The notes below the pieces were generated by a model, which worked only from the letters and a program-made list of their open reading frames with translations, did no database searches and was not told where the DNA came from. 41,804 nt of DNA, taken from the NCBI GenBank assembly GCA_013140715.1, contig JABFSG010000078.1, positions 1-41,804 on the forward strand, given 5' to 3'. Source of the stretch: Nitrospiraceae bacterium. Lineage in GTDB: Bacteria > Nitrospirota > Nitrospiria > Nitrospirales > Nitrospiraceae. A program made the translations under genes and the position numbers. Below, piece after piece: positions 4,046 to 23,451 of the stretch (its first letter is position 1; every line of letters begins with the position of its first letter).

Positions 4046-7000
4046 ATGTCTGCGTATTTACCGCCCGATGCATCGAAGAGACGTGTGCGTGAAGCTCAGA
4101 ATGCGAGGGACAATCGCGCGGAGATCGTCAAGGCCCTCTCCCAGGGCCAGATTACCAGGCGCGATCTGAACAAGTGGGGCCTCTTTACCGCCGCAGGGCT
4201 GCTGATCTGTAAGAACGGCTTGAGCCCCTTTGCCAATAGTGCCTTTGCTCAGGGTGCAACAGGTGTCCCGGCGACACCGCTGAATGGCGCGGTGCCCTTT
4301 ACGCAGTCCTTTAAGCGCCTCGACTATGTGCCGCCGACTCCCCTGACGAAGCTTGTGCAGCCGAACGGCGAGTGGGACGCCATCTGGCCGGCCGGCGTCA
4401 CGCCGGAGGCTCAACCGGCGGCGAAACGGCTTTCCTACCACACGGACTTCAGCGCGCACCAGGCTGGCAATACGGCGGCGAATCCCTTTATCAATCCCAT
4501 CACCAAGCGGGGGCCGATGGAAGGCCGTCCGCCGGGCGAATGGTTCGGCCATCAACGCTGGAAAGAGTTTTTCCCACAAGTGGGCTATGTCCTCGCGATG
4601 GGGGAATGCGCAACTGGGACCAAGTTTCACCCTGCCTGGCCGGATCAGGCCGCGAACAAGGTCTGGCCCATGTATCATTTCGAGGGATGGGGGCAGAAGG
4701 GGCATGCGCCGATTCCCCTCTTGAAGGGGCGCTATGGGGAACCGATGGTCATGCGGTTCTTTAACAACGTGCCGGCGGATCGGACCAAGAACGGTGGGTT
4801 CGGGCGGAATGAGTTTTCCACCCATTTCCACAATGCCCACAACGGGGCGGAGAGCGACGGCGCCTCCAACGCCTATCACTTCCCAGGGACCTTCTACGAT
4901 TACCATTGGGGGACCTGTCTGGCGCGGCACGACATGACCAATCGAGACGCCACTGAAAAACGCGCCTCTGGGCCGGATGGCCATGGTGGCTTGGTCCAGG
5001 TGCCGGGCGATTGGCGCGAGCTGCAGGGGACCCTCTGGTTCCACGACCACCGGTTCTTCTTCACCTCGGAGAATGTCTACAAGGGCAGCGCCGCGATGAT
5101 GAACTATTACAGTGGACCGGACCGAGGCAACGAAGTCATCGACGACGGGGTGAACCACCGGCTCCCCAGCGGCTTTCTTCTGGATTGGGGGAACATCGAC
5201 TTCGACCTGAATATCTTTATCTCAGACGCGGCGACCGACCTGGATGGACAGTATTTCTTCGACATCTTCACGACCGATGGGTTCGTGGGAGATCGTCTGC
5301 TCGTGAACCATGCGTGGAAACCCTACATGGAGATCCTGCCGAGGAAGTATCGCATGAGGCTCATCGATGGATCGATGTCACGGTTCATTCAATTGTGCTT
5401 GGCAGACCAGAACGGGAACGCTGTGCCGTTCCAATTCATCGGCAACGACGGCAACTTCGTCGTCAATCCGATCACGCTGACCCAACTGGACCAGCAGGGC
5501 ACGGCGGAACGGTACGACATCGTCGTGGATTTCTCACGATTCCGGCCAGGCGACAAGGTGCATTTGGTGAATCTGTTGCAACAGACCGACGGGAGAAAGC
5601 CGGATGGAGCCCTGTCTTTGGCGAGGGCGCTGGCGCAGGATTCACCGGACACGGCTGTCGGGGCGATCATGGAATTCCGGATCGTATCCGAGGTGGAGAG
5701 TGTGGACGTGCCGGGCCACATCCATCGCGCCAGCGACCAAGACCAGAGCCGTGTGCCGCAGATTTTAACCGACCAGATTCCCATCGTGGCGCCGGTGCGC
5801 GAACGGCATGTCGACTTCGGACGATCAGGCTCGGGAGATTCGCGGGATCTCATCACAGGTCAGTGCATTCCCGAGTGCCAGGAGCCGGAGGTGGCCCCCT
5901 CCTTCCCCTGGACCATCAAGGTCAACGGGGAGACGGCGCATAGCGCGAACGGAAATCGCATCTCGCTCTTGATCCCGAAACCGGGCGAGGTCGAACATTG
6001 GACCTATCAGAACGGAGGAGGAGGCTGGGACCATCCGATCCATCTCCACTTTGAAGAGGGCGTGACGATGGAACGCAACACGCCCATCATTGCTCAAGAG
6101 AATCTGGTGCGCAAGGACGTATGGCGGCTGCATCCCAGCGGCTCGGTGAAGTTCCAGGTGCGCTTCGGTGAATATGGCGGGGCCTATGTGAACCATTGCC
6201 ACAACACGGTGCACGAAGACTTTGCCATGTTGCTGCGCTATCAGATCCTGACGGATAAGGACAACCCAAACTCCTCGAACGTCCACGTGGACATTATTCC
6301 GACACCGCTGCCGACACCGGACGGTTGTACCTATATGACGCCGGATGTGCTGGCGGAGGGCAATCCATTGGGGAACCAGGTGACGGTCTCTGCCGCGCCG
6401 GTCATCAATTCAACGCCGATTCTGGCTGCGACGGTGAACGAAGCCTACAGTTACCAGGTACAGGCTTCGGACGCCAATGGCGATGTCTTGGCCTACAGTC
6501 TGGACTTTGCGCCGGTGGGGATGGCCATCAACGCTGCCACAGGGCAGGTCTCTTGGACGCCGACAGCGGCACAGATGGGACCCAACCAGGTGACGGTGCG
6601 GGCGGCGGATCCGAAATCTCTGTTCGCGACTCAGTCCTTCACGGTCGTGGTGGCGCAGATTGCGGTCACGCCGGTCATCACTTCGACGCCGATCCTGACG
6701 GGGAAGGTGGGCACAGCATACCGTTACGATGTAGATGCGACGGACGCCAACGGCGACACGTTGGTCTATAGCTTGGTGGCGCCGATCCCGGCCGGCATGT
6801 CGATCAACCAGTCCACTGGTTTGATCGCTTGGACACCCACAGCCAACGGGTCCTTCTCTGTGACGGTCCGAGCGACGGATCCAAGCGGTCTGTTTGCCAG
6901 CCAGTCGTTCAACGTGTCTGTGACGGCCAATGCTGCGCCGGTCATCGACTCGCGGCCGTCTACGACGGGAAAGGTGGGCGTGCCCTACAACTATAGGGTG

Positions 7001-7201
7001 CATGCCACGGATCCCAACGGGGATGCGATTACCTACCGTGGCAGTGGGCTCGGCAATCCCAATAACTTCTCGGTCAACGCGACAACCGGCGTCGTCAGTT
7101 GGACACCGACGCAGGCAGGAAGCATCCGAATCAGGGTCCGGGCAAGCGATACCGCCGGTCTGACGGCGGAGCAGGCCTTCTATGTGAAGGTATCGGCGTA
7201 G
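4046..7201 (+). CDS. Tat-exported multicopper oxidase with three C-terminal Ig/cadherin-like repeats
   Basis: The 1051-residue product starts at an ATG six bases after GGGAGGAGG. The N-terminus has a twin-arginine signal (ITRRDLNKWG near residues 36-45, hydrophobic stretch, AFAQ site near 69). All four copper motifs are present: HFHNAH (His260, 262), WFHDH (His333, 335), HPIHLH (His663, 666, 668) and HCHNTVHEDFAM (His717, Cys718, His719, His723, Met728). This gives a complete trinuclear centre and a type 1 site with Met as the likely axial ligand. Residues from about 786, 877 and 966 begin three He_PIG-type repeats, an unusual addition for this family. Laccase-like oxidation of metals or phenols with O2 reduction is expected, and the substrate cannot be read from sequence. 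Neighbouring SCO1 genes fit copper loading. Confidence 0.92.
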   Translation: MSAYLPPDASKRRVREAQNARDNRAEIVKALSQGQITRRDLNKWGLFTAAGLLICKNGLSPFANSAFAQGATGVPATPLNGAVPFTQSFKRLDYVPPTPLTKLVQPNGEWDAIWPAGVTPEAQPAAKRLSYHTDFSAHQAGNTAANPFINPITKRGPMEGRPPGEWFGHQRWKEFFPQVGYVLAMGECATGTKFHPAWPDQAANKVWPMYHFEGWGQKGHAPIPLLKGRYGEPMVMRFFNNVPADRTKNGGFGRNEFSTHFHNAHNGAESDGASNAYHFPGTFYDYHWGTCLARHDMTNRDATEKRASGPDGHGGLVQVPGDWRELQGTLWFHDHRFFFTSENVYKGSAAMMNYYSGPDRGNEVIDDGVNHRLPSGFLLDWGNIDFDLNIFISDAATDLDGQYFFDIFTTDGFVGDRLLVNHAWKPYMEILPRKYRMRLIDGSMSRFIQLCLADQNGNAVPFQFIGNDGNFVVNPITLTQLDQQGTAERYDIVVDFSRFRPGDKVHLVNLLQQTDGRKPDGALSLARALAQDSPDTAVGAIMEFRIVSEVESVDVPGHIHRASDQDQSRVPQILTDQIPIVAPVRERHVDFGRSGSGDSRDLITGQCIPECQEPEVAPSFPWTIKVNGETAHSANGNRISLLIPKPGEVEHWTYQNGGGGWDHPIHLHFEEGVTMERNTPIIAQENLVRKDVWRLHPSGSVKFQVRFGEYGGAYVNHCHNTVHEDFAMLLRYQILTDKDNPNSSNVHVDIIPTPLPTPDGCTYMTPDVLAEGNPLGNQVTVSAAPVINSTPILAATVNEAYSYQVQASDANGDVLAYSLDFAPVGMAINAATGQVSWTPTAAQMGPNQVTVRAADPKSLFATQSFTVVVAQIAVTPVITSTPILTGKVGTAYRYDVDATDANGDTLVYSLVAPIPAGMSINQSTGLIAWTPTANGSFSVTVRATDPSGLFASQSFNVSVTANAAPVIDSRPSTTGKVGVPYNYRVHATDPNGDAITYRGSGLGNPNNFSVNATTGVVSWTPTQAGSIRIRVRASDTAGLTAEQAFYVKVSA

Positions 7202-7224
7202 GAGTAGTAAGTGGCAAATAGTGA

Positions 7225-7261: not shown

Positions 7262-7278
7262 GTCTGAGGAGAAGGACT

Positions 7279-7313: not shown

Positions 7314-7336
7314 TTGCACAACTAGAGACTCGAAAC

Positions 7337-8407
7337 ATGAAACTCGAAACTCCCCAGCGCCTCACGCCTCACGTCTCACGCTTCACATCTGAGGTTTCGC
7401 GTTTCACGCTTCACGTTTCACGTTTCACGTCTGAGGCTCCACGCCTCACGCTCTGCGCGCTGCTTCTGTGGGTTTTCTGCGCAGCGCTCGCCGCCACTTC
7501 CGCGTCCGCCGGGACCTGGGATGGTTCTTATTTTCCGAACGTGCCGCTGGTGACTCAGGACGGGCAGACAGTCAAGCTCTACGACGACTTGATCAAGGAC
7601 AAGATCGTCCTGATCAACTTTATCTATGCCGGCTGCAAAGAAGTCTGTCCCCTCGTGACGGCCCGTATGGCGCAGGTGCAACAGGCTTTGGGCGACCATG
7701 TCGGGCGCGACATTTTCCTCTACTCGATTTCGCTCGATCCTGTGCACGACACGCCGGACGTGCTGAAGCAACATGCCAAGGCCTTTCACGCTGGACCTGG
7801 CTGGTTGTTTTTGACCGGCAAGCCGGAAGACATCGCGATCGTTCGTCACAAGCTCGGAGATCGGGGCAAGGGCCTGTCGGACCATAGCAACGGCGCGATG
7901 GCGGGAAACGGCGCGACCGGCGACTGGGAACGTACCTCTTTGTTCGAGGATACGGGGAAGCTCGCTTTGGTGATGCTCAATATGGATCCGGCCTTCAGGG
8001 CAAAGAAAAACAACATGCCTGGCACGGCCTATGCCGGGATGTCGCCGGTGCCCTACGTGAATCAGCCGGGGCAAGCCCTCTTCATCAAGGCCTGTGCTTC
8101 CTGTCACAGCATCGGACAGGGAGACTTTGTCGGGCCGGACCTCCAGGGTGTGACGGCTCGTCGAGAGCGGCCCTGGCTCCTCAAATTTCTTCAAGCGCCC
8201 AATGTGATGCGCGCGCAGAAAGATCCGACCGCCGTGGCGCTTTCAGCCAAGTTCCCCGGTGTCATGATGCCTAATCTCGGTCTGTCGGAGGCGGATGTGG
8301 GAGATCTTCTGGCCTATCTGGACGTTAGAACGGCACGGTTGGCGGCGCCTCCCCATTCCGAGGCAGAACGACCTGTGACTCGTGAAACGTTAAACGTGAA
8401 ACGTTAA
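7337..8407 (+). CDS. SCO1/SenC copper chaperone fused to a cytochrome c domain
   Basis: The 356-residue product has a hydrophobic export segment at about residues 40-60 and a thioredoxin-like SCO domain (about 63-210). That domain carries the copper-binding GCKEVCP motif (Cys100, Cys104) and a SISLDPVHDTPD segment. A mono-heme cytochrome c domain follows (about 240-335) with CASCH (Cys253, Cys256, His257) and a Met in GVMMPNL as the probable sixth ligand. SCO proteins deliver copper or reduce Cys in oxidase assembly; the fused heme could also pass electrons from the oxidase. The ATG at 7337 has no clear ribosome-binding site. Residues 8-40 are encoded by a 14-unit heptamer array, and the last residues and stop by another. 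No better in-frame start is evident before the export segment, so the true start is uncertain. Confidence 0.88.
   Translation: MKLETPQRLTPHVSRFTSEVSRFTLHVSRFTSEAPRLTLCALLLWVFCAALAATSASAGTWDGSYFPNVPLVTQDGQTVKLYDDLIKDKIVLINFIYAGCKEVCPLVTARMAQVQQALGDHVGRDIFLYSISLDPVHDTPDVLKQHAKAFHAGPGWLFLTGKPEDIAIVRHKLGDRGKGLSDHSNGAMAGNGATGDWERTSLFEDTGKLALVMLNMDPAFRAKKNNMPGTAYAGMSPVPYVNQPGQALFIKACASCHSIGQGDFVGPDLQGVTARRERPWLLKFLQAPNVMRAQKDPTAVALSAKFPGVMMPNLGLSEADVGDLLAYLDVRTARLAAPPHSEAERPVTRETLNVKR
7358..7455. repeat. Fourteen phased 7-bp repeats inside the SCO-cytochrome gene
   Basis: There are exactly 14 consecutive heptamers of the form CG(C/T)(C/T)TCA with variants CATCTGA, GGTTTCG, CGTCTGA and GGCTCCA. Three units make 21 bases, so the translation shows a 7-residue period (VSRFTSE, VSRFTLH, VSRFTSE). 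The array supplies the basic region before the export signal. Confidence 0.9.
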
Positions 8408-8518: not shown

Positions 8519-10567
8519 ATGCAACGGCGATCAATGTTGTTCAATTTGCTCGGTGCGGTGGGGCTGCTCGGACTGTTGGGCGGCTGTGGAAGTGGTGGTG
8601 GCGGGACCACGACCAGCACCGGCGGGACGACCAGTGGATCTGCGGCGGCCACCGGGACAGTCACAGGCTTCGGCAGCGTCTTTGTCGACGGCAAGAAGTT
8701 CGACACGAGTGGAGCGTCGTTCATCGTCGATGGCGAGGCTGGTGGACAGGACGATCTCAAGCTCCGTCAGCTCCTCAAACTTGGGATGACGGTCACGGTC
8801 ACCGGTTCTTTCAACGGCAACAAGTGGTTGGCCGACACGTTGCTGCAGAAGGATGCAGTGGAGGGCTTGGTACAATCAATCGCGGCTGATGGATTGAGCC
8901 TGGTGGTGATGGGACAGAGGGTCTTGATCGATAGCACCACGCTGATCGACAAGAACATTCCAGGGCAAAACATCCTGAGCCTCTTGGCGGGGCAAGACTC
9001 TGTCGAGGTGAACGGGTATATCGGACCGAACGGCGAGATCCAGGCGACCTTCATTGAAAGGAAGGATCCTGGGGCTGTAACCCCAGAGGTGCGTGGGGTT
9101 GTGACTGGGCATCAGTCCGGGCTCAATACCTTCCGGATCGGCGCCCTCATCGTGAATTATGCAGTGGCGGACTTCAGCAACATGCCGAATCCGAATGTCA
9201 CTCCTTGGAACGGGCTCTTCGTGGAAATAAAAGGAACAGACTCCAACAGCTTCGATCCCGTGACGAGGACCCTCACCGCCAGCAGGGTCGAGCCGGAGAA
9301 TCGTGGGCTCGCTATTAATCGTATCGATCAATTCAATCTGCAAGGGGCCGTGACTCAGACGCAAGTTGATGGGACCGACGACTTCTTGATTGGAACGACC
9401 AGGGTTCGCACGACGGCCAGCACGGAGTTCGTTGGCGTGAATCTCGGTACTATCGCCGTCAATGCAAAACTGTCCGTCGAGGGCCGGCTGGCGAACGGAG
9501 TCATGACAGCGACGCATGTGACAGCCAACGCCCCCCCCGTCATCACCTCAACACCGACCTTCACAGGGACTCAGGGCGTGGCATACAGCTACGACGTGAA
9601 CGCCACGGATGCGAACGGCGATACGCTGACCTATAGCCTGGTATCTCCAGTCCTGTTGGACATGACGATCGATCCGGCCACGGGCCTGATCTCGTGGACA
9701 CCACCAGCCGCGGCAAACGACTATTCAGTGACCGTGCAGGCATCGGACGGCAGCCTCGCCGCTAACCAGTCCTTCACTGTGAAAGTGGCGGCGGCCGTTG
9801 CGCCAGCCGCACCAGCCTTCATTACCCCAACAGCGCTACCGCCGGCGATTGTGCAAACGCTCTATACCACTACCGTAAACGCCACGGATGCGAACGGCGA
9901 TACGCTCACCTATAGCCTGGTGGCGCCGGTTCCAGCCGGGATGACCATCGTTCCCAGCACGGGAGTGATCAGTTGGACCGCGGCGGCAGGCCAGGTCGGG
10001 CCGCATGCTGTGACCGTGCGGGCGCAAGACAACAGTAGCAGCAGTCTGGCTGCCAGCCAGATCTTCACCATCAATGTGAATCAGGCCACAGCGGCAAGCG
10101 GCGTGGCTTTTGGGTTTGACGATCTGACAAGGGGTGGCTACAACGTCACGCAGCCAGGCCTCTGGACTAAAATTGGTCCGGATGCCTTCTCGACATTCAG
10201 TGGCTCGGCCATCATCGTGCGAGGGGATCTGACGGTGATCATAGACAGTAAAGGAAACCAGAGATTCAATAGCCCGGAGTTCACATTTTTAGGCGTGACC
10301 CTGATCGGCAATGCGACCACAGACACCACCTTTGTCGTCGCCGGCTACAACGGTAGTCACGGGGTCACGGATTTTTACTACACCACGACTGTGAAGGCCG
10401 GAGAACAGCCGATTACAGTTCAGAACTCTTTCCTCGACAATTTCAATAGACCGATGAACCTGTCGATCGACCGACTGGAAGTGAATGGAAACAGTCTGGT
10501 TACTCCTGATTTCGGGGTCAGCTGTCTCAGAGTCGGAACATCCGGAAGCACTCTCGCCTGTCCGTGA
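8519..10567 (+). CDS. Surface lipoprotein with DUF5666-like modules and two Ig/cadherin-like repeats
   Basis: The 682-residue product starts at an ATG after a GAAAGGG ribosome-binding site. A lipobox, LLGGC (Cys23), is followed by a Gly/Thr/Ser-rich linker. From about 47 to 330 there are repeated short beta modules (GTVTGFGSVFVDGKKF, GMTVTVTGSF) of the DUF5666 type. Residues of about 339-430 and 433-525 are two He_PIG repeats whose DNA contains a 44-base near-identical copy 279 bases apart. The last 155 residues are of unknown type. The lipid anchor plus adhesion-like repeats suggest an outer-membrane or surface protein. It sits between two SCO/oxidase gene pairs and shares repeats with the oxidase at 4046, so a scaffold or docking role is possible but unproven. 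Confidence 0.85.
   Translation: MQRRSMLFNLLGAVGLLGLLGGCGSGGGGTTTSTGGTTSGSAAATGTVTGFGSVFVDGKKFDTSGASFIVDGEAGGQDDLKLRQLLKLGMTVTVTGSFNGNKWLADTLLQKDAVEGLVQSIAADGLSLVVMGQRVLIDSTTLIDKNIPGQNILSLLAGQDSVEVNGYIGPNGEIQATFIERKDPGAVTPEVRGVVTGHQSGLNTFRIGALIVNYAVADFSNMPNPNVTPWNGLFVEIKGTDSNSFDPVTRTLTASRVEPENRGLAINRIDQFNLQGAVTQTQVDGTDDFLIGTTRVRTTASTEFVGVNLGTIAVNAKLSVEGRLANGVMTATHVTANAPPVITSTPTFTGTQGVAYSYDVNATDANGDTLTYSLVSPVLLDMTIDPATGLISWTPPAAANDYSVTVQASDGSLAANQSFTVKVAAAVAPAAPAFITPTALPPAIVQTLYTTTVNATDANGDTLTYSLVAPVPAGMTIVPSTGVISWTAAAGQVGPHAVTVRAQDNSSSSLAASQIFTINVNQATAASGVAFGFDDLTRGGYNVTQPGLWTKIGPDAFSTFSGSAIIVRGDLTVIIDSKGNQRFNSPEFTFLGVTLIGNATTDTTFVVAGYNGSHGVTDFYYTTTVKAGEQPITVQNSFLDNFNRPMNLSIDRLEVNGNSLVTPDFGVSCLRVGTSGSTLACP
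9599..9921 (+). repeat. Intragenic direct repeat (44 bp copies at 9599-9642 and 9878-9921)
   Basis: The two copies differ by one base and are 279 bases apart, exactly 93 codons, marking the same point in adjacent Ig-like repeats. The identity suggests recent duplication or gene conversion between repeats. Confidence 0.85.
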
Positions 10568-10574
10568 AGGGCGA

Positions 10575-10684: not shown

Positions 10685-10696
10685 CGGAGAATAACC

Positions 10697-13643: not shown

Positions 13644-14093
13644 ATGGGAATCACTATGCCGCATCGCAACCATCCCCCGTACCGACGCAGGACGGAGGGG
13701 GGGTTCACACTGCTGGAATTGCTTGTCGTGATGGTGATCATCGGCCTGCTTGCCGGGTTTGTCGGGCCTCGATATTTTTCACAGATCGGGAAATCGGAGG
13801 CCAAGACTGCCCGTGCCCAATTGAACGCGGTGGAGCAAGCCCTCGATCAATATCGCTTGGATGTCGGTCACTATCCCTCCACGGAACAGGGATTGGCTGC
13901 CCTCATGACCAAACCGGCCGATGAAGCCAAATGGGCAGGGCCCTACTTGAAGAAAACCCTTCCTACGGACCCATGGGGCAAGCCCTATTCCTATAAGTTC
14001 CCCGGGGAGCACAGTGAGTTCGATTTATGGTCGTTCGGCAAAGATGCGCAACCGGGTGGAACGGTCGATAACGAAGACGTTACGAACTGGTAG
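13644..14093 (+). CDS. gspG: Type II secretion major pseudopilin GspG
   Basis: This 149-residue protein begins at an ATG after TAAAGGAG. The prepilin peptidase site is Gly20/Phe21 (GG-FTLLE) with Glu25 at +5, followed by a hydrophobic helix (about 24-42). The C-terminal half has the GspG hallmarks of a YPSTEQGL segment, DPWGKPY and a final acidic WSFGKDAQ.....DED loop that binds calcium in known family members. GspG polymerises into the periplasmic pseudopilus that pushes substrates through the secretin. It is the first gene of a run of about eleven overlapping or closely spaced genes. Confidence 0.95.
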   Translation: MGITMPHRNHPPYRRRTEGGFTLLELLVVMVIIGLLAGFVGPRYFSQIGKSEAKTARAQLNAVEQALDQYRLDVGHYPSTEQGLAALMTKPADEAKWAGPYLKKTLPTDPWGKPYSYKFPGEHSEFDLWSFGKDAQPGGTVDNEDVTNW

Positions 14094-14099
14094 GGGGTC

Positions 14100-15290
14100 A
14101 TGCAGTACCACGTCAAGGCCATGCAGTCGCTGGATACGGTGGTGGAGCTGAACGTCGACTCCATCGATGCCGACGACGCTCGCCGTCAGGTCGAGCGGTT
14201 GGGCTACGAGGTGTTGGCGCTCCGTTCTAAACGGGCCGGATTGTCCGCCTATCTGAAGCGGCCGACGACCTTTCCGCTGACCCTGTTCAGTCAAGAACTG
14301 ATCGCCCTGCTGGGAGCCGGCCTCTCGTTGGTGGAGGCCCTCGAGACGCTTCGCGAAAAAGAGCGCCATCCGGACTTGAAGCAGGTGCTGGAACAGATTC
14401 TCGCCAAATTGCGAGAGGGCCGCACATTTTCTTCGTCTGTCGAACAGTTGCCCTCCAGTTTTCCCGCGCTCTATGTCGCGACGGTTCGCGCCAGCGAGAA
14501 AACCGGCGATCTCCGCGAGGCCCTCTCCCGCTACATCGCCTATCAGGTACAACTGGATCTGGTTCGTAAAAAGCTCGTGAGCGCCTCTATCTATCCGGTC
14601 GTGCTGCTCGTCGTCGGCGGACTCGTGATGCTGTTCTTGCTGATGTATGTGGTGCCCAAGTTCAGCCGTATCTATGAAGACGCGGGCAAGGACTTGCCGG
14701 TGTTGTCGCAGCTATTGCTGGAGTGGGGAAAAGTGATGGAGGCGCACGGTCTCCTGGTCATGGGCTGCCTCGCGTTGGCGGGGGCCGTCTCCGCTTACGG
14801 ACTTACGCTGCCCGCTGTGAAAGCGAGAGTCGCCTCCCAGCTTCGATCGATCCCCTCCATCGGGAGCAAGCTGCAGGTATTCGATCTCGCACGTTTCTAT
14901 CGCACCTTGGGGATGTTGGTGAAGGGCGGTATCCCGATCGTGGCGGCTATTGAAATGGTCTCCGGTATTCTCCCCCTATCCTTGCGCGGTCCGCTTCAAG
15001 CGGCTGTGCGGGATCTCCGTGAAGGAAAGCCGGTTTCCCAGGCGATGGAGTCGCACGGATTGACAACCCCCGTGGCTCATCGAATGTTGCGTGTCGGAGA
15101 GAGGACCGGGCAGATGGGGGAGATGATGGAACGGATCGCGGTCTTCTACGATGAGGATATCGCGCGTGTGCTGGATTGGCTGACGAAACTGATCGAGCCG
15201 GCCCTGATGGCCGCTATCGGTCTCGTAATCGGGACGATCGTGCTTCTCATGTATTTCCCCATGTTTGAACTGGCGGGGAGTATCCAATGA
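14100..15290 (+). CDS. gspF: Type II secretion inner-membrane platform protein GspF
   Basis: The product has 396 residues, usual for the family, and starts six bases after the gspG stop with GGGGGT upstream. Two repeated cytoplasmic T2SSF domains are visible (about 65-190 and 265-390), each with the characteristic F...L..L...G..L..AL pattern. Hydrophobic segments lie near 160-190, 215-235 and 365-390. It forms the inner-membrane platform that couples the GspE ATPase to pseudopilus growth. Its stop overlaps the start of gspE by four bases. Confidence 0.93.
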   Translation: MQYHVKAMQSLDTVVELNVDSIDADDARRQVERLGYEVLALRSKRAGLSAYLKRPTTFPLTLFSQELIALLGAGLSLVEALETLREKERHPDLKQVLEQILAKLREGRTFSSSVEQLPSSFPALYVATVRASEKTGDLREALSRYIAYQVQLDLVRKKLVSASIYPVVLLVVGGLVMLFLLMYVVPKFSRIYEDAGKDLPVLSQLLLEWGKVMEAHGLLVMGCLALAGAVSAYGLTLPAVKARVASQLRSIPSIGSKLQVFDLARFYRTLGMLVKGGIPIVAAIEMVSGILPLSLRGPLQAAVRDLREGKPVSQAMESHGLTTPVAHRMLRVGERTGQMGEMMERIAVFYDEDIARVLDWLTKLIEPALMAAIGLVIGTIVLLMYFPMFELAGSIQ

Positions 15291-16984
15291 GCCGCACCGA
15301 ACAGGCGATCGCCGGTCAGGAAAAATTTTCGCCGAGCGAGTTGGCGCGCGCGAAGGCGGATGCCGTTCGCGCGAAGCGGCGGTTGATCGAGGTGTTGGAC
15401 GATCAGTTTCAGCTGAGCCACGATGAGTTTGCCGCAAAACTGGCGGCGACCCTGCACTACCGTTGGCTGGACCAGAAATCTCTCCAAGCCTGTGAAGCAG
15501 ATTTTAGCCGGATTCCCTATCCCGAGACAGTGGCGCACGAATGTCTGCCGTTCCGCGATGAGCAGGGCCTCCTCTGCGTGGCATTCTGCGACCCGTTCGA
15601 TCCGGCCAGACAGGCCTGGGCGAATGAACAGCTGAGGGAATCCGCCCTGTGGGTCTTGGTCCATCGCGTAGCGTTGCTCTCGATGTTCGCGAAGTACGAG
15701 GCGGGAGCCCGTGCGATGGACGACGTGATGGCGCTCGACCCGGAGCGGCGCCGGGTGTCCGAGGCGATCGAGGACCTGTCGATCAAATCGATCAGCGAAG
15801 GAACCAGCCCGGTGGTCAAGCTGGTGCATTCGACGATTTACGATGCGTTCAAGCTCGGCGCCAGCGACATCCATCTTGAGGCGGGCACGTCGGATCTGAC
15901 GATCAAGTATCGCATCGACGGGGTGCTCTTGAAAGTAAAGGTGGTGGAAGGCAAGGAGATGGCCGAGCAAGCGATCTCCCGCATCAAGGTCATGTCGGAA
16001 CTGGACATTTCTGAGCGGCGCATTCCCCAGGACGGCCGGTTCAAGCTGGCGGTCCTCGGCCGCGCGGTGGATTTTCGAGTATCGGTGATGCCCAGCATCC
16101 ATGGAGAAGACTCGGTCATCCGTATCCTGGATAAACAGTCGTTGTCGCAGCAGAGCCAGGGGCTTCGGCTGGATATGATCGGCTTCGACGAGCAGACGGT
16201 GACACAGATCCGCGGACTCGCTTCCGAACCCTACGGCTTGATGCTGGTTACAGGCCCCACGGGAAGCGGGAAGACGACTTCTCTCTATGCCGTGCTCAAC
16301 GAGCTGAACCAGGGCCAGGACAAAATCATTACGATTGAAGATCCGGTGGAGTATCAGCTGCCGGGGATTCTGCAGATTCCCGTCAACGAAAAGAAGGGGC
16401 TGACCTTTTCCCGCGGACTGCGCTCGATCCTGCGTCACGACCCGGATAAGATCATGGTCGGAGAAATTCGGGATTCGGAAACCGCTCAGATCGCCGTCCA
16501 GTCGGCATTGACCGGGCACCTGGTCTTGGCGACGGTCCATGCCAACAACGTGCTGGACATCATCGGGCGATTCATCCACATGGGAGTGGAGCCCTATAAT
16601 TTCGTCTCGGCCTTGAACGGGGTCATTGCGCAACGTCTCTTGCGCGTCCTCTGCTCCCACTGCGTCGATCCCTACCGCCCCGACAACAAACTTCTGGCCG
16701 CGTCACGGCTGACCGAAGCGGAGGCGGCGAACTTCAACTTTCGAACCGGGCGTGGCTGCAAGGACTGTTATGGAACCGGGTACAAAGGACGCCGGGCCAT
16801 CGCGGAGGTGCTGCTGCTCACCGACGAGATTCGGGAGCAGATCGTCGCCAAAGAACCGATCCGCAAGATCAAGGACACGGCGCGGGCGACCGGTACTCGT
16901 TTTCTCCGGGAGTCTGCGATGGATCTGGTTCGTCAAGGCATCACCACGTTGGAGGAGATCAACCGTGTTACCTTTGTTGGCTGA
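15287..16984 (+). CDS. gspE: Type II secretion ATPase GspE
   Basis: This 565-residue cytoplasmic ATPase overlaps gspF (ATGA). An N-terminal GspE/PilB-type domain occupies about residues 1-140. The motor domain has a Walker A GPTGSGKTTS (from residue 323), an Asp box with ITIEDPVEYQ, a Walker B region IMVGEIRDSET and a His box around TGHLVLATVHANN. A CxxC pair (Cys456, Cys459; Cys491, Cys494) forms the zinc module typical of GspE. ATP hydrolysis powers pseudopilus extension. The gene overlaps the next start. Confidence 0.95.
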   Translation: MSRTEQAIAGQEKFSPSELARAKADAVRAKRRLIEVLDDQFQLSHDEFAAKLAATLHYRWLDQKSLQACEADFSRIPYPETVAHECLPFRDEQGLLCVAFCDPFDPARQAWANEQLRESALWVLVHRVALLSMFAKYEAGARAMDDVMALDPERRRVSEAIEDLSIKSISEGTSPVVKLVHSTIYDAFKLGASDIHLEAGTSDLTIKYRIDGVLLKVKVVEGKEMAEQAISRIKVMSELDISERRIPQDGRFKLAVLGRAVDFRVSVMPSIHGEDSVIRILDKQSLSQQSQGLRLDMIGFDEQTVTQIRGLASEPYGLMLVTGPTGSGKTTSLYAVLNELNQGQDKIITIEDPVEYQLPGILQIPVNEKKGLTFSRGLRSILRHDPDKIMVGEIRDSETAQIAVQSALTGHLVLATVHANNVLDIIGRFIHMGVEPYNFVSALNGVIAQRLLRVLCSHCVDPYRPDNKLLAASRLTEAEAANFNFRTGRGCKDCYGTGYKGRRAIAEVLLLTDEIREQIVAKEPIRKIKDTARATGTRFLRESAMDLVRQGITTLEEINRVTFVG

Positions 16985-17819
16985 CCAGCTCAGCATCCTC
17001 ATGTGCCCAGAGTGGTTGCTGGTGGCGCATCGGCCCCGCGGTTTTCGCCCGGGACCGATGACGACGACTACGGTGCCGGTGTCGGCATCGTCCGAGGGCT
17101 CTGCAGGCTGGGAGGCGGCTGCCGCAGCGTTGGAAGCTCTCTTGGCAGCCAATCCCCAGTGGCGAGGGGCATCGATCCGGATCGTTCTCTCCAATCATTT
17201 TGTTCGCTATGTCTTGGTGCCCTGGAGCAACGACTTAAGCAACGAGAAGGAACATCTGGTGCTTGCGCGGCGCCACTTCGCCTTAACCCATGGACCGGTC
17301 GCCAAAAACTGGGCGATCCGGATGAGCCTCGACAACCCTGGAGAGTGCCACGTCGCCAGCGCGCTGGACGAGTCTCTCGTGAGCCGCCTGACCCTGGCGG
17401 CAACGGCGAGCCATTTGAAGCTCACCAGCTTGGAACCATTGCTGATGGCATCGTTTAACCGATGGCAGCAGGACTTTCGCGAGGAGTCCCAGTGGTTTGT
17501 GACTGTGGAGAACGGCATGTTGTGCGGCGCTCTGGTGGGTCGTAACCGCTGGATCGCGCTGCGGCGTTGGCGGATACAGGACGACTGGGCTTCAGAGTTG
17601 TCCCTATGGCTTTCACGAGAACAATTGATCGGCGAGGAGTCCGTCCCGGTCGGGGCCGTGTATCTCTTGGCGCCTCCCCATGCGGGGGCCCATTCAATGG
17701 CTATGGGACCGCTCTTGAGATTTCTTTGTGAGGACGATCGCAACAATTACCGGAACGGGACGCTGGACCGAGGCGCCAAGGCTGTTGAGGAGGCGGGCTA
17801 TCTCTCATGCATTCTTTAA
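16965..17819 (+). CDS. PilM/GspL-like secretion assembly protein
   Basis: I place the start at GTG 16965, giving 284 residues, because GGAGGAG precedes it by seven bases. This makes it overlap the end of gspE by 20 bases. Motif support is weak: no signal peptide or clear membrane segment is seen, and the fold resembles the cytoplasmic actin-like part of GspL/PilM only in a general way. Position between gspE and a PilN-like gene is the main evidence. In such systems this protein links the ATPase to the inner-membrane PilN/PilO-type subunits. The following gene overlaps it by 13 bases. Confidence 0.6.
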   Translation: MLPLLADQLSILMCPEWLLVAHRPRGFRPGPMTTTTVPVSASSEGSAGWEAAAAALEALLAANPQWRGASIRIVLSNHFVRYVLVPWSNDLSNEKEHLVLARRHFALTHGPVAKNWAIRMSLDNPGECHVASALDESLVSRLTLAATASHLKLTSLEPLLMASFNRWQQDFREESQWFVTVENGMLCGALVGRNRWIALRRWRIQDDWASELSLWLSREQLIGEESVPVGAVYLLAPPHAGAHSMAMGPLLRFLCEDDRNNYRNGTLDRGAKAVEEAGYLSCIL

Positions 17820-18352
17820 GGCTCGACTATACCGACCGGGCGGTTCTGTGGACCAGCCAGGGGGCTGTTTGGCTGGCTGTCGGTCTCCTGCTGGTGGTCA
17901 TAACCGGATCCTACTACTGGTACCTCGCAGAAGAAACCGCTCTCGTGGCGGAGAAGATCGAAGCAGCCAGGCAGCATACGGGGCGGGAGCGGATGGGAAA
18001 GGAAAAGTTGACGGAGGAACTGAAGACCTTTCGCGCCGATATCAAGGAATCCCAGACTGTGTTGGGACAGCTTACGATTCCCTGGGATCCGCTCTTCATC
18101 GCAGTGGAACAGGTCGGGGGCAGACATATCGACCGTATTGCCCTGATGGCTATTCATCCGGACGTAGGCGAGCAGCGAGTGGTGATTGAAGGCCGGTCGG
18201 CCGATTTCGATGTGTTGATGGACTTTGTGACGCAGTTGGCGGAATTCGACATCATCCGTCACGCGTACCTCAGCCGTCACCAGCGGGAAGATAAGGATCG
18301 CGATAAGCCTGTGCGGTTTTCAATCGTAGCGGAATGGAACGTACGATCATGA
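17807..18352 (+). CDS. PilN-like inner-membrane assembly protein
   Basis: The 181-residue protein has a short cytoplasmic N-terminus, one transmembrane helix (about residues 18-40), a coiled-coil segment rich in Glu/Lys (about 42-80) and a small alpha/beta periplasmic domain. This is the layout of PilN and of the GspL C-terminal part. It overlaps the preceding PilM-like gene and its stop overlaps the ATG of the next gene (ATGA). It probably pairs with the next product to form the alignment complex between inner membrane and secretin. Confidence 0.65.
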   Translation: MHSLRLDYTDRAVLWTSQGAVWLAVGLLLVVITGSYYWYLAEETALVAEKIEAARQHTGRERMGKEKLTEELKTFRADIKESQTVLGQLTIPWDPLFIAVEQVGGRHIDRIALMAIHPDVGEQRVVIEGRSADFDVLMDFVTQLAEFDIIRHAYLSRHQREDKDRDKPVRFSIVAEWNVRS

Positions 18353-19170
18353 ATTTCGGTAGCTTTCTCCGATCGACAGGAATGGGGACGGCGGTCGGTC
18401 ATTCTACGCCGAAGTCCAAGCAGGCCAGCTTTCTGCGGCGTATGCCCAGCCAGTGGATCGAGATCCTGGTGGCTCGAGTCGCAGGCTCCGGGAAAACTGG
18501 ACCAGCCGTTTCGCCAGTGGAGCGCTTGGGCTGGGCTCGTCGATTCTGGAAACAGCGGCCGGGGGGTTCTGGCATCAAGGGCATGGAGATTTCCAAGGCC
18601 AAGCCAAGCCTTCCGTCAGTGGGTCACCTGAGCTGGGCTTTGCGGCTCTGGGTGCAACGCCTCGGGGTATCTGGCGCTGTAGGTCTGGGACTTTTGGCGT
18701 TTGTAGCGATGTTTTACCTGTCTGCTGTCCTCACCCTCGAGGCAGAACAGGCGCAGATCCTTGAAGAGCTCGAGTCCTCGCTGTCGCATGTCAGGAAAGC
18801 AGGGGGTGTTCCCACCGTGGCTCCCCGGACTCCCAGCGAACAACTCTCGGACTTCTATGCCATTTTCCCTCCTGTCGATCAGGCGCCAGAAACACTGCGG
18901 AAGATCAATCAATTGGCTGAGAAGCAGCACCTGGTTCTACAGGCAGGCAATTACCATGTGATCGACGACCACACCGGCCGCCTGATCCGCTATGAAGCGT
19001 CGTTGCCGTTGGTCGGCTCCTACCCGAATGTGCGGCAGTTCTTGAGGACTGTGTTGGCTGAGGTTCCCAGTGCGGCTCTCGAAAAGGTGAATGTCGAGAA
19101 AAATATGATGGGTGGCGCTCAGGCCAAGACCACGGTCAGCTTCACGCTATTTATGAGGAGAGACAGCTGA
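18349..19170 (+). CDS. PilO/GspM-like inner-membrane assembly protein with extended N-terminus
   Basis: I favour the ATG at 18349, which overlaps the previous stop, giving 273 residues (an ATG at 18334 is also in frame). A single transmembrane helix lies at about 105-128, then a coiled coil and a PilO-like ferredoxin-type domain (about 165-270). The 100-residue cytoplasmic N-terminus is unusually long for PilO/GspM. It contains a duplicated motif, LGWARRFWKQR..GSG and LSWALRLWVQR..VSG, 34 residues apart, the second copy entering the membrane helix. The function of the extension is unknown. Confidence 0.65.
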   Translation: MNFGSFLRSTGMGTAVGHSTPKSKQASFLRRMPSQWIEILVARVAGSGKTGPAVSPVERLGWARRFWKQRPGGSGIKGMEISKAKPSLPSVGHLSWALRLWVQRLGVSGAVGLGLLAFVAMFYLSAVLTLEAEQAQILEELESSLSHVRKAGGVPTVAPRTPSEQLSDFYAIFPPVDQAPETLRKINQLAEKQHLVLQAGNYHVIDDHTGRLIRYEASLPLVGSYPNVRQFLRTVLAEVPSAALEKVNVEKNMMGGAQAKTTVSFTLFMRRDS

Positions 19171-19775
19171 TGGTTTCCGTCGCTCCGAAATACGTGATGC
19201 TCGTTTTGCTTGTGGCGGGGCTCCTCGAGGCTACCAGCGGGTTCGCCGGCAACCAGGCGGTGAGCCCTCAGGGGAATCTCGGTCTCGATCTCGGAAAGCT
19301 GAATCAGCGGGTGACCAGGAATAACGTCTACGATATGTTTCCGGGGGGTATGAGACAAGAGGGCTCGTCTCAGCCTTCTTCTCCTTCGACCTCCTCCAAA
19401 CAAGAGGAGCCTCGCTCGAAGGGTAAATTCAAACGGGGTGGGTCTCATGCTGTGTCCATGCCTCCTCTCCCGCTGCTAAGCCCTGCGGTCGTCGAGGAGA
19501 TTCAGGCCGCCCCGATCGAACCGATTACGATCGAGCCGCTGCCGCCCGTCGTAATCCCGACACCGCCTTTCCCGTTCAAATTTGCGGGAGTCCAGAGGCA
19601 ACCATCCGGGCAGACGATCTATTTTCTGACCAAGGACAACAGACTGTATACCGTCGAGGTCGGTCAAATCCTCGATACCCTGTATTCCATCGACGGCGAA
19701 GAAGGAGGGCAACTGACTGTGACCTACCTGCCGTTGGATCGTAAGCAAACCATTAGCATGGGGTTGGCAACATGA
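19170..19775 (+). CDS. PilP/GspC-like periplasmic assembly protein
   Basis: This 201-residue protein overlaps the previous stop by one base. A signal peptide or membrane anchor spans residues 1-27. A Ser/Pro/Lys-rich linker follows, then a Pro-rich stretch (PIEPITIEPLPPVVIPTPPFPF) and a small beta domain (about 140-200) resembling the HR domain of GspC/PilP. In related systems this domain binds the N0 domain of the secretin, which is encoded next. The assignment rests on layout and gene order. Confidence 0.6.
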   Translation: MVSVAPKYVMLVLLVAGLLEATSGFAGNQAVSPQGNLGLDLGKLNQRVTRNNVYDMFPGGMRQEGSSQPSSPSTSSKQEEPRSKGKFKRGGSHAVSMPPLPLLSPAVVEEIQAAPIEPITIEPLPPVVIPTPPFPFKFAGVQRQPSGQTIYFLTKDNRLYTVEVGQILDTLYSIDGEEGGQLTVTYLPLDRKQTISMGLAT

Positions 19776-21955
19776 CACTCTTCACTCGCGCAACGCTCGG
19801 GACACGCATCCTCGGCTGTGCCTTTCTCGCCGCTTCGCTGGCCGGCTGCAGCGCCAACCATCTTTTCAACGAGGGGATGTCGGACATCAATGCCGGACGT
19901 TTGGATGCCGGGTTGGCCAAGATCGAGGAGGCGGTGAGGAAGGACCCGGATAGTTCATTTTTGCAAACTCAACTGCGTATGAAGCGAGAATATGTGGCGC
20001 AGCGTTTCATTCAGGACGCGGATGCGGCCCGCGCGGCTTCTAATTTCACGGAGGCCCGCCGGCTCTATCAATCCGCGCTGGAACTGGACAGGGCCAATCA
20101 GCAGGCGTTGGCAGGCCTCGAGTCGACGAAGAATGCGGAGCTGAGTCAGCTCGAGATCCGGATGGCCAAGGATCTGATCGGTCATAACGACCTCAAAGAA
20201 GCTCAGACGCAACTGGCGCATATTTTAAGCACGGACCCGAATAACTTCGAAGCGAAACAGCTACTGAATAATATCCTCTCGCAAAACCCGCCGCCAGAAC
20301 CGGCCAAGCCGAGACTGCGCTTGAAGGACGATCGCATCTCAGTGCTGCAGTTCCGCGAGTCTCCGCTGGGTATGGTGTTCGAGGCGCTCTCGCGAACCAG
20401 CGGCATCAATTTCGTGCTCGACAAAGATGTGAAGAGCGACGCCAAAACGAATATTTTTGTGAAGGACATGCTGGTCGAGTCGGCCTTGGACATGGTGCTG
20501 GCCCAACATGGTCTAGAGCGAAAACTCCTCGCCGACAATATCGTCCTGATTTTTCCCGACACGCCGGACAAACGGCGGCGCTATGAAGAGCAGATGGTCA
20601 AGTCTTTCCACCTCACGAATGCGGATCCGAAGCAGGCGATGAGCATGCTGAAGGTCATGCTGGACATTAAATCGCTGTTCATCGACGAGCATGCGCGATT
20701 GCTCGTCATGCGGGATACGCCTGAAGTAGTGCGTATGGCCGAAAAGCTCCTCGTCTCCCTCGATCTGGAGGACGCGGAAGTCATGATGGAAGTGGATATC
20801 GTAGAGATCACTCGCTCGAAGCTGCAGGAGCTCGGTATCAAGTATCCGAGCCAGGTCACTCTCAATGTGCTCGCTCCTACAGTAGCCGGCGCAGCCACAG
20901 GCGGAGCGGCCCAGGCGCTGAATACGCTTGGTGGCATTCGGTTCGGAGACAAAACCACATCGATCTCGAGCCTCGGTGCGACGATTAACCTCAAACGGGA
21001 AGATTCCGATGTCAATATCCTCTCCAGCCCGAAGATCAGAGCGAGGAATTATGAAAAGGCCAAGGTTCATATCGGAGACCGTGTTCCGGTCTTTACGAAC
21101 GCTGTGACACCTATCATCGGCGGGACCGGCAGCGTGGTCACCGGCAGCGTAACGTATCTCGATATCGGACTGAAATTCGATGTGGAGCCGACGATCTATC
21201 GAGACGACGAAGTGTCCATGAAGTTGAACCTGGAAGTGAGCAGTATTGTGAAAGAGGTCACGTCCGGGTCGAGCTTGTCCTATCAGGTCGGCACGAGGGC
21301 TGCCTCTACCGTATTGCGATTGCGGGACGGCGAAACGCAGATCTTGGCAGGGCTGATCAGCGATGCAGACCGTGAGACGGCCAGCAAGGTGCCTGGACTC
21401 AGTAATATTCCGGTCCTCGGGCGGCTCTTCACGTCTGTGAAGACCGACAAGACCAAACAGGAGATTGTGCTGTCGATCACACCCCATGTCATCCGGCATG
21501 GCAAGCGCCCCAGCGCCTGGTCGTCTGAAATTCTGTATGGCACTGAAAGCTCGCGGGGCATTCCCATGACGATCAAGGTGGGTGAGAGCGAGCGCAAATC
21601 CCTTGTGGATGCCAAGGGCGCCTCAGCCGTATCCGTGCCCGCAATTGTGACGACGGGGGCGACCGTTTCAGGAAGTCCTTCCGAGGGCCAAGTTCGAAAT
21701 GAGCCGATCCCAGCCTCAGACGTGGACAGCACGAGGAAAGGTGCCCGCCGTAAGGGCGCCGGCCAGGCTCCTCCTGTGACAATACTGGAGACGGTTCCAG
21801 GAAGTCCTTCTGAAAGTCCGGTTCGCAATGAAACAACTCCTTCTACAGACTCGGCAGGAACGAAGAAAGGCGTGCTGGAAGATCCCTCCGAGAGTCCGGC
21901 TCTAAATCAGCCGGCCCCAGCTGAAGGAGCAGAAAACGCGGGGCAGACTCCATGA
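19772..21955 (+). CDS. gspD: Type II secretion secretin (GspD/PilQ family), lipoprotein
   Basis: The 727-residue product overlaps the previous gene by four bases. The signal ends in a lipobox, SLAGC (Cys26), so it may reach the outer membrane without a separate pilotin. Residues of about 30-165 look like TPR helices, not usual in GspD. N0/N1-type domains follow (about 185-350), then the secretin barrel domain (about 370-600) with VPVFTN, VEPTIY and the ILAGLI...VPGLSNIPVLGRLF signature. A 95-residue Ser/Pro-rich tail carries three diverged copies of a PSESPVRNE motif. It forms the outer-membrane gate. Confidence 0.93.
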   Translation: MTLFTRATLGTRILGCAFLAASLAGCSANHLFNEGMSDINAGRLDAGLAKIEEAVRKDPDSSFLQTQLRMKREYVAQRFIQDADAARAASNFTEARRLYQSALELDRANQQALAGLESTKNAELSQLEIRMAKDLIGHNDLKEAQTQLAHILSTDPNNFEAKQLLNNILSQNPPPEPAKPRLRLKDDRISVLQFRESPLGMVFEALSRTSGINFVLDKDVKSDAKTNIFVKDMLVESALDMVLAQHGLERKLLADNIVLIFPDTPDKRRRYEEQMVKSFHLTNADPKQAMSMLKVMLDIKSLFIDEHARLLVMRDTPEVVRMAEKLLVSLDLEDAEVMMEVDIVEITRSKLQELGIKYPSQVTLNVLAPTVAGAATGGAAQALNTLGGIRFGDKTTSISSLGATINLKREDSDVNILSSPKIRARNYEKAKVHIGDRVPVFTNAVTPIIGGTGSVVTGSVTYLDIGLKFDVEPTIYRDDEVSMKLNLEVSSIVKEVTSGSSLSYQVGTRAASTVLRLRDGETQILAGLISDADRETASKVPGLSNIPVLGRLFTSVKTDKTKQEIVLSITPHVIRHGKRPSAWSSEILYGTESSRGIPMTIKVGESERKSLVDAKGASAVSVPAIVTTGATVSGSPSEGQVRNEPIPASDVDSTRKGARRKGAGQAPPVTILETVPGSPSESPVRNETTPSTDSAGTKKGVLEDPSESPALNQPAPAEGAENAGQTP

Positions 21956-22437
21956 ACCTAGGGAGCAAATCCGAGCGAGGTTTTACGCTGGTGGAGATGG
22001 TCATGACGGTGGCTATCGTCGGAGTGTTGGCTTCGGCTGCCATGCCCCTTGCTAGCTTGGTTTCACAGCGCAGCAAAGAGCAGGAACTCCGACAATCGCT
22101 GCTGCAGATCCGTGAGGCCATCGATGCGCATCGGCGCGATTTCGATGCCGGGCGCATTGCCAAAGGCACGACGGATTCGGGATATCCCAAGACACTGAAG
22201 GATCTCACAGAGGGGGTCGTCGATCAGACGAGTCAAAAGAAGAAGCGACTGATCTATCTGCGTCGGATGCCGCGGGACCCGCTGCACATGGATCAGTCGG
22301 TGCCGGCAGAGCAGACCTGGGGACTCAGGAGCTACGAGAGTCCGCCGGATGAGCCGAGTTCCGGCAACGACGTCTTCGATGTCTATTCTCTCAACAAGGG
22401 TGTCGGGTTGAACGGCATTTCCTATTCGAAGTGGTAA
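21952..22437 (+). CDS. Type II secretion pseudopilin
   Basis: The 161-residue protein overlaps the secretin stop (ATGA). It has a prepilin site at Gly10/Phe11 (RG-FTLVE, Glu15 at +5) and a hydrophobic helix to about residue 32. The C-terminal half ends in a DVFDVYSLNKG segment and SYSKW. It resembles a GspG-type pseudopilin without the calcium loop. Similar C-termini (YSEW) end the next two proteins, suggesting a family expanded in place. Confidence 0.85.
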   Translation: MNLGSKSERGFTLVEMVMTVAIVGVLASAAMPLASLVSQRSKEQELRQSLLQIREAIDAHRRDFDAGRIAKGTTDSGYPKTLKDLTEGVVDQTSQKKKRLIYLRRMPRDPLHMDQSVPAEQTWGLRSYESPPDEPSSGNDVFDVYSLNKGVGLNGISYSKW

Positions 22438-22451
22438 AGGGTGATGTTGCG

Positions 22452-22841
22452 ATGAAGCCAGTCGATCGAAAGGGCACAGAAGGATTTACACTCATTGAGC
22501 TACTGGTGGTCCTGGCCATCGTCTCGACGCTGTTGACCTTGGCCGTGCCCCGATATTTCTCCAGTGTGCAACGGTCCAAAGAAGTCGTCATGAGGGAGAA
22601 TCTTTGGATCATGCGGGACGCTCTGGATAAGTATTTCGGCGACTCTGGACGGTATCCAGACCAGCTCCAAGATCTGGCTACTAAGAAATATCTCCGCGCG
22701 ATTCCCATCGATCCGCTCACTGAGACGGCGACGAGCTGGCGCGTGATTCCGCCTGACGATCCTGAGAAAGGAGGCGTTTACGACGTCAAAAGCGGAGCGG
22801 AGGGGAGCGATACGGGAGGGAGTTCCTACAGTGAATGGTAA
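22452..22841 (+). CDS. Type II secretion pseudopilin, GspG-like
   Basis: I chose ATG 22452 (129 residues) with AAAGGG upstream; a GTG at 22431 overlapping the previous gene is possible. The prepilin site is Gly11/Phe12 (EG-FTLIE) with Glu16 at +5. The remainder (RYPDQLQDL, YLRAIPIDPLT, VYDVKSG, final SYSEW) matches short GspG-type pseudopilins. It probably belongs to the same pseudopilus as the proteins at 13644 and 21952. Confidence 0.85.
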   Translation: MKPVDRKGTEGFTLIELLVVLAIVSTLLTLAVPRYFSSVQRSKEVVMRENLWIMRDALDKYFGDSGRYPDQLQDLATKKYLRAIPIDPLTETATSWRVIPPDDPEKGGVYDVKSGAEGSDTGGSSYSEW

Positions 22842-23451
22842 CGGTCTGGGGGGATCGGCTCTGCGGAAGATGAGCGGCAACCGGCGTCGGTGCTTGTCGC
22901 TAGGATCGCAGGAAGGGTTCAGCTACATCGGGATCCTGCTTGTGATCGCCCTCGTCGGGGTTCAGCTGGGCCTGGCCGGAGTGGTATGGAGCTTTGCGCA
23001 AGCCCGTCAGAAGGAGCGAGAGTTGCTGTTTGTCGGGGGCCAGTTCAGAACCGCCATTAGCCAATACTTTTTGAATCCAAAAGGCCCTCAGAAGGAATAT
23101 CCTCGTCGCCTGGAGGATCTATTGCAGGATCCCCGGTATCCCAGCACCGTTCGCCACCTGCGAAAAATTTATGCCGACCCGATCACCGGGAAGAAACAAT
23201 GGGGACTGGTGAAACTTCCGAACGGCGGCATTGTCGGAGTCTATAGCCTCTCAGAAAAAGAACCGATCAAGACCGGCAATTTTCAGCCTGCAGACATATC
23301 CTTTACGAGAAAACAACGGTATTCCGAATGGAAATTCGTGCATGCGTTCGGGACATCGAACGTTGCTGCTCCTGGTTCTCCCGGCACACCCGCTGTTCCT
23401 GCTCTCTCGTCCGACCCTCAAATACACAATGGTGAAGACGAAGAGCAATAG
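22831..23451 (+). CDS. Atypical pseudopilin lacking Glu at +5
   Basis: The 206-residue product starts at GTG 22831, overlapping the previous gene; ATG 22870 is an alternative. A prepilin-like site, EG-FSYIG (Gly29/Phe30), precedes a hydrophobic helix, but +5 is Gly34 instead of Glu. Among type II pseudopilins, absence of Glu5 is known for the tip protein GspK, though this protein is smaller. The body (YPRRLEDLLQDPR, YADPITGKKQW, VYSLSEKEP, YSEWKF) is clearly related to the pseudopilins upstream. A Pro/Ala-rich tail ends in an acidic stretch. It is the last gene of the operon. Confidence 0.8.
   Translation: MNGNGLGGSALRKMSGNRRRCLSLGSQEGFSYIGILLVIALVGVQLGLAGVVWSFAQARQKERELLFVGGQFRTAISQYFLNPKGPQKEYPRRLEDLLQDPRYPSTVRHLRKIYADPITGKKQWGLVKLPNGGIVGVYSLSEKEPIKTGNFQPADISFTRKQRYSEWKFVHAFGTSNVAAPGSPGTPAVPALSSDPQIHNGEDEEQ

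Follow-up and report, generated by a model that had tools for sequence, protein, structure and literature searches.

A putative module for the maturation and secretion of multicopper oxidases in comammox Nitrospira

A gene island in a genome of the genus Nitrospira appears to form a module by which extracellular multicopper oxidases (MCOs) are matured and exported, most likely for the oxidation of Mn(II). We give this reading, drawn from gene content and homology, a probability of about 0.62. The island lies in a window of 41,804 nucleotides (contig G000:C62, 1-41804) of a metagenome-assembled genome (MAG) that is 99.7% complete and carries amoA. Its named genes are all on the forward strand, in a single-strand run from 700 to 23451 (Table 1). 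An earlier note on this DNA had described two MCOs with signals for twin-arginine translocation (Tat), two SCO1-type chaperones, one of them fused to cytochrome c, and an operon for a type II secretion system (T2SS) on the same strand. Pfam confirmed the chaperones and the oxidases (MCO1 and MCO2), whose N termini are Tat-like and whose copper motifs are intact; the operon was found at 13644-23451 on the forward strand and is atypical. The note had also counted two proteins that share the immunoglobulin (Ig)-like repeats of the oxidase. The sharing stands, at 40-54% identity between island proteins, but one of the two (700-3198) lies upstream of the region, 4046-23451, to which the note had assigned them.

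Linkage of oxidase and secretion genes

The linkage between oxidase and T2SS genes is established. Within the genus, the island-type T2SS was found in seven of 32 genomes, each of them MCO1-positive, with orthologues at 76-100% (GspD) and 93-100% (GspF) identity. It was found in none of the 24 MCO1-negative genomes (Fisher 2e-6 over the 32 genomes, uncorrected for kinship), and the sole MCO1-positive genome that lacks it has a completeness of 71%. The MCO1-negative genomes carry a different T2SS at about 30-37% identity. With GspD at ~30% and GspF at ~35%, the proposal that the island encodes the general Nitrospira T2SS was rejected. The island-positive genomes do not form a single clade in an rpoB tree, for which support is partial.

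Comammox (complete ammonia-oxidising) Nitrospira oxidise ammonia fully to nitrate, and several are known from drinking-water sand filters. All seven island-bearing genomes carry amoA, and five of the 12 amoA-positive genomes lack the island. Within the genus sample, only comammox Nitrospira have the complete MCO1-T2SS pairing, setting apart one incomplete MAG with MCO1 alone. Across the phylum, MCO1 was detected in five of 396 sampled Nitrospirota genomes, all from this one genus, and a linkage general to Nitrospirota was therefore rejected. Several named MCO1 relatives belong to Nitrospira MAGs labelled RSF, which we take to stand for rapid sand filter. A relative is also present in the ferromanganese-crust MAG MnTg02. 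One Nitrospira genome holds a second MCO1 copy that is 78% identical (G008:C20:10216-13110; L011/L078).

Outside Nitrospirota, MCO1 relatives lie at most about 11 kb from T2SS genes in Rhizobiales, Rhodobacterales (Fuscovulum) and Paraburkholderia. The Rhodobacterales case is a plasmid with an annotated T2SS beside the MCO1 relative. In most alpha- and betaproteobacterial loci, and also in Methylomirabilis, MCO1 is closely followed downstream by a homologue of the SCO1-cytochrome c fusion (SCOcyt). On a Paraburkholderia megaplasmid, nearly the whole module is contained in about 24 kb: MCO1, SCOcyt and an adjoining DUF5666-like protein, two proteins related to the one at 700-3198, a peroxidase of the MauG type and a T2SS whose gene order is largely that of the Nitrospira island. 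Fifteen alphaproteobacterial genomes with MCO1 relatives (3.6-7.5 Mb) carry one T2SSG gene each; in nine of the 15 its distance from MCO1 is no more than 10 kb, where 0.06 would be expected by chance (uncorrected for phylogeny). The co-localisation of oxidase and T2SS is thus greater than chance.

The histories of the two parts differ. The Nitrospira MCO1 branch nests within Alphaproteobacteria, whereas Nitrospira GspE groups with Betaproteobacteria in a midpoint-rooted tree with long branches. Because the two trees are discordant, the pairing probably arose more than once. The link between oxidases and secretion operon, which the earlier note had offered as inference, therefore holds up on co-occurrence in the genus, co-localisation in proteobacteria and discordant trees. 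The refuting condition that it had set, a lack of conserved linkage among relatives, did not hold: the order MCO1-SCOcyt-(DUF5666)-MCO2-SCO-GspGFE and onward is kept in related Nitrospira, and MCO1, SCOcyt and T2SS occur together in Alpha- and Betaproteobacteria, but the linkage is not Nitrospirota-wide.

A family whose ~600 N-terminal residues match nothing in Pfam (700-3198 here; L089:5247-7664 and 9918-12329) accompanies MCO1 in Nitrospira and Paraburkholderia. The N-terminal part of the 700-3198 protein gave tblastn matches of 27-29% to the two proteins beside Paraburkholderia MCO1. This family may be a conserved partner of MCO1.

The oxidases and the secretion machine

A third Tat-type oxidase (MCO3) belongs to the set. 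In two better-assembled genomes with long contigs, the island extends upstream to MCO3, a SCO gene and a gene for a MauG-type protein that bears the same Ig-like repeats as the island proteins. In the source genome these three genes are on contig C48, which is most likely the piece adjoining the window contig. A large, repeat-rich protein of surface type, which has the motif LEPRLLLSA in its N-terminal part, is encoded upstream of the MCO3 genes on C48 (L068:370-3849).

Family membership of the oxidases is established. The four copper motifs are intact in MCO1, MCO2 and MCO3, with their His, Cys and axial Met ligands, and HCHxxxHxxxxM is present in both MCO1 and MCO2. For these two, the closest solved structures by phmmer and Foldseek are bilirubin oxidase and CotA (MCO2 against bilirubin oxidase, phmmer E 9e-53; MCO1 model, of moderate confidence, against CotA, Foldseek E 2e-29). 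The copper motifs and, for MCO1, the fold place them among three-domain MCOs of the CotA/bilirubin oxidase type. The MCO1 model was made with AlphaFold from an alignment of 27 rows, with rows from annotated plasmid records left out. The copper ligands are followed by an invariant HLHFEEG, and the sequence of bilirubin oxidase differs at the same place. The N termini of MCO1-3, with an RR motif and then a run of hydrophobic residues, are predicted to be Tat signals; the Pfam TAT_signal match of MCO3 is slightly under the cut-off. The Ig-like repeats of the DUF5666 lipoprotein are 52-54% identical to those of MCO1.

The secretion operon encodes GspG, GspF, GspE, GspD, a PilN-like protein and three pseudopilins, together with PilM-, PilO- and PilP-like proteins assigned by position. 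GspG qualifies as a T2SS major pseudopilin, far over the TIGR01710 cut-off. GspD, GspE and GspF contain the expected Pfam domains, and T2SS models rank top for each in NCBIfam yet remain under their equivalog cut-offs. For possible counterparts of GspC, GspL and GspM, the one domain match is the weak PilN hit, the adjoining genes being placed by position. One prepilin peptidase gene (Peptidase_A24) is present elsewhere in the source genome. This gene set is best described as an apparently atypical T2SS. A subtype specific to oxidases was considered and rejected. On plasmids of Burkholderia ambifaria, Eleftheria terrae and Janthinobacterium lividum (L093, L094, L095), the same subtype adjoins large genes with RHS repeats, FG-GAP or IPT/TIG domains. 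There it is possibly a cargo-linked exporter of RHS proteins. Such neighbourhoods would suit a secretion system that moves between genomes together with what it exports.

From these features we infer secretion, location and substrate in Nitrospira as follows. MCO1 and MCO2, and MCO3 encoded elsewhere in the genome, would cross the inner membrane folded via Tat, as their N termini suggest. The SCO proteins, one with a c-type haem, may supply or redox-prime copper, in keeping with their family and constant adjacency. The adjacent atypical T2SS would then carry the oxidases over the outer membrane, as the linkage and the precedent of OmpB and the Pul system in Geobacter suggest. Outside the cell, Ig-like repeats common to the partner proteins may hold MCO1, which would oxidise a metal, most likely Mn(II), using O2. 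That the haem-bearing SCO returns some electrons to respiration is much less likely.

Substrate, alternatives and known systems

The question of substrate was approached through GE001273, an FtsP/CotA-like MCO of Georhizobium sp. MAB10. The recombinant protein formed Mn oxide in vitro (PMC11708043). The published GE001273 primers were translated, and the forward primer was searched in 395 genomes of the family, giving three exact matches. One of these genomes has exact sites for both primers, at the two ends of an open reading frame (ORF) of 777 residues and 87.2 kDa. This size fits the 100.7-kDa SUMO fusion described for GE001273. A second genome has an intact ORF of equal length with the same terminal residues, and in the third (G683, L132:7235-9513) a frameshift cuts the ORF to 456 residues. 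A second MCO1 copy beside the frameshifted ORF also appears split, through assembly error or decay. Over 775 residues, the primer-bounded ORF and the MCO1 of the window share 55% identity, and they have the same copper motifs. The ORF has SCOcyt, T2SS genes and a gene for a MopA-like peroxidase as neighbours in all three primer-matching genomes. Such peroxidase genes are near MCO1 in seven loci, these three and four more, and the two proteins scanned combine An_peroxidase with RTX repeats. MopA-type peroxidases are a known class of Mn(II) oxidase (PMC6247904). Because of the GE001273 assay and homology and the MopA-like neighbours, Mn(II) is the leading candidate, and is most likely the substrate of MCO1 in Nitrospira. 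The tentative naming of Mn(II) by the earlier note gains support from the assay of this homologue. Limimaricola OXR-209 was considered as a documented Mn oxidiser and rejected, as its paper makes no mention of manganese.

Several points weigh against an island that secretes Mn(II) oxidases. GE001273 was assigned via primer sites in a genome and not from its deposited sequence (PP102380). In an overnight reaction supplied with 0.25 mM Cu, each mol of the enzyme yielded 5.84 mol of Mn oxide (PMC11708043), a turnover so low that its main substrate may be something other than Mn. The MCO1 model is weak around the copper site, where a mean predicted local distance difference test score of 69 precludes comparison of the pocket. 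In other Betaproteobacteria, the T2SS subtype of the island also adjoins RHS/FG-GAP genes. No T2SS was matched in the examined flanks of several MCO1 loci (e.g. L021, L026, L027, L034-L036), and the second MCO1 copy in Nitrospira has no T2SS or SCO gene matched nearby.

The low turnover suits an alternative in which the oxidases are secreted by the T2SS but act on an organic (phenolic, laccase-like) substrate, or on Fe(II) or Cu(I), with Mn(II) oxidised as a side reaction. The closest solved relatives, bilirubin oxidase and CotA, point the same way, and CotA of B. pumilus, a laccase, can also oxidise Mn (PMC3618234). We consider this alternative unlikely, though it deserves to be taken seriously, given the MopA-type genes at seven loci, the relatives in MnTg02 and in RSF-labelled Nitrospira MAGs, and perhaps the departure of the invariant HLHFEEG from the bilirubin oxidase sequence. 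Less probable again are oxidases that remain in the periplasm, where they would confer tolerance to copper or provide it to ammonia monooxygenase, with the T2SS exporting the products of other nearby genes, for example the Ig-repeat proteins. Members of the SCO family handle copper in the periplasm, the oxidases are distantly related to CueO, and amoA, a copper enzyme gene, is present in every T2SS-positive genome of the genus. The island is nevertheless missing from five of 12 amoA-positive genomes, the pairing recurs in Alphaproteobacteria not known to oxidise ammonia, and Ig-like repeats fused to MCO1 suit an extracellular site. It is very improbable that oxidase and secretion genes merely co-travel as an accessory block without functional dependence. 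The patchy distribution and a transposase-like remnant seen by eye at the contig end would fit such a block. However, different T2SS lineages pair with MCO1 in different classes and gene orders, and co-absence from 24 genomes is hard to square with hitch-hiking.

Secretion of multicopper proteins by a T2SS is already known from Geobacter OmpB. In Geobacter sulfurreducens, the Pul T2SS is required for OmpB secretion (Mehta et al., 2006, cited in PMC3543383 and PMC5566968). The likeness extends to an atypical T2SS (Pul/OxpG), SCO1 and cytochrome genes near ompB and an accessory adhesion-type domain. The pul genes, however, are described near cell-division and DNA-uptake genes, away from ompB, and OmpB, likened here to MCO1 by description and not by sequence, serves Fe(III)/Mn(IV) reduction. 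Cytochrome and SCO genes adjoin both ompB and mofA (PMC5566968). Clusters of the mofABC/ompB type thus likewise combine SCO1 and cytochrome c genes with that of an extracellular MCO, but have no described T2SS, and MofA too is likened by description rather than sequence. In Pseudomonas putida GB-1, a Gsp-related pathway is reportedly needed to export the Mn-oxidising factor (de Vrind et al., 2003, cited in PMC3798386).

The GE001273 loci resemble the island in oxidase, copper motifs and SCOcyt, T2SS and peroxidase neighbours. They differ in that the primer-bounded ORF lacks Ig-like repeats and the T2SS neighbours are ~37-43% identical to GspG/GspE of the window; the available part of PMC11708043 draws no link from the oxidase to a secretion system of its own. 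MopA-like genes adjoin MCO1 in several Alphaproteobacteria but belong to another protein family, with RTX repeats, and are absent from the Nitrospira island. Among the window proteins scanned, none has the animal haem peroxidase and RTX architecture. The source genome has two An_peroxidase matches outside the window, in frames of 741 and 513 residues. New here are the packaging with a T2SS of its own in a single locus, the reappearance of the unit in more than one phylum alongside differing T2SS lineages, the connection with an Mn oxidase tested in vitro and the presence in comammox Nitrospira. A literature search of incomplete coverage found no paper reporting the oxidase-SCOcyt-T2SS combination.

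A role for Nitrospira as manganese oxidisers in sand filters for drinking water was proposed in 2025 on the strength of community data and of annotated mnxG, moxA and cyc2 genes, with no tested enzyme (PMC12070406). The island is a concrete candidate for this role, with an oxidase homologous to one that acts on Mn in vitro, likely maturation factors and a likely exporter, and the suspected role is now testable gene by gene. Comammox bacteria with the island might oxidise Mn(II) extracellularly via oxidases exported by a dedicated T2SS, so that one organism would couple complete nitrification and manganese removal in sand filters; we hold this tentatively, at somewhat less than even odds. The conserved oxidase-SCOcyt-T2SS unit recurs across phyla and is open to genetic testing in cultured rhizobia. 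It is also relevant to a long-standing problem, the means by which bacteria position Mn oxidases beyond the outer membrane.

Gene content of the window

Table 1. Features of the oxidase and secretion island in the window
Position	Strand	Product	Basis
700..3198	+	Secreted protein, 2 C-terminal He_PIG Ig-like repeats	Pfam; N-terminal part without Pfam match
4046..7201	+	MCO1, Tat-type multicopper oxidase, 1051 aa, Cu-oxidase_2, 3 C-terminal He_PIG Ig-like repeats	Pfam, phmmer, Foldseek
7337..8407	+	SCO1/SenC copper chaperone fused to mono-haem cytochrome c (SCOcyt)	Pfam
8519..10567	+	Putative lipoprotein, DUF5666 and 2 He_PIG Ig-like repeats	Pfam
10697..12712	+	MCO2, Tat-type multicopper oxidase, 671 aa	Pfam, phmmer, copper ligands
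12709..13353	+	SCO1/SenC copper chaperone, 4-base overlap with MCO2	Pfam
13644..14093	+	GspG major pseudopilin	TIGR01710, 178 bits (cut-off 88.85)
14100..15290	+	GspF/PilC inner-membrane protein	PF00482; top NCBIfam GspF, below its cut-off
15287..16984	+	GspE/PilB ATPase	PF00437, E 1e-126; top NCBIfam GspE, below its cut-off
17001..17819	+	PilM/GspL-like, by operon position alone	No Pfam match; position kept in related Nitrospira loci
17807..18352	+	PilN-like protein	PF05137, weak, E 5e-4
18334..19170	+	PilO/GspM-like, by position	No Pfam match; weak match to same-place Paraburkholderia protein
19170..19775	+	PilP/GspC-like, by position	No Pfam match; weak match to same-place Paraburkholderia protein
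19772..21955	+	GspD-type secretin, N-terminal lipobox	PF00263, PF07660, PF03958; top NCBIfam GspD, below cut-off
21952..22437	+	Pseudopilin	N_methyl motif
22431..22841	+	Pseudopilin	N_methyl motif
22831..23451	+	Pseudopilin-like protein	No Pfam match; 42% identity to same-place Paraburkholderia protein
24107..25780	+	MauG/di-haem cytochrome c peroxidase, after T2SS operon	PF03150

For MCO2, the ATG start was taken in preference to a GTG at 10598. The first ~45 codons of the SCOcyt ORF (7337-7460) are repeated VSRFT-type units that are absent from homologues. They resemble a short intergenic repeat that has been read as coding sequence, and the true start may be later. Relatives of the peroxidase at 24107-25780 are found at 32-35% near MCO1 in three other loci (L030, L087, L088). 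On the minus strand, 27692-30174 holds a cluster of small lipoproteins, PEGA-like and CsgG-like proteins, annotated by eye from the sequence. At the contig end, an ORF at 41036-41803 resembles, also by eye, a broken IS110-type transposase.

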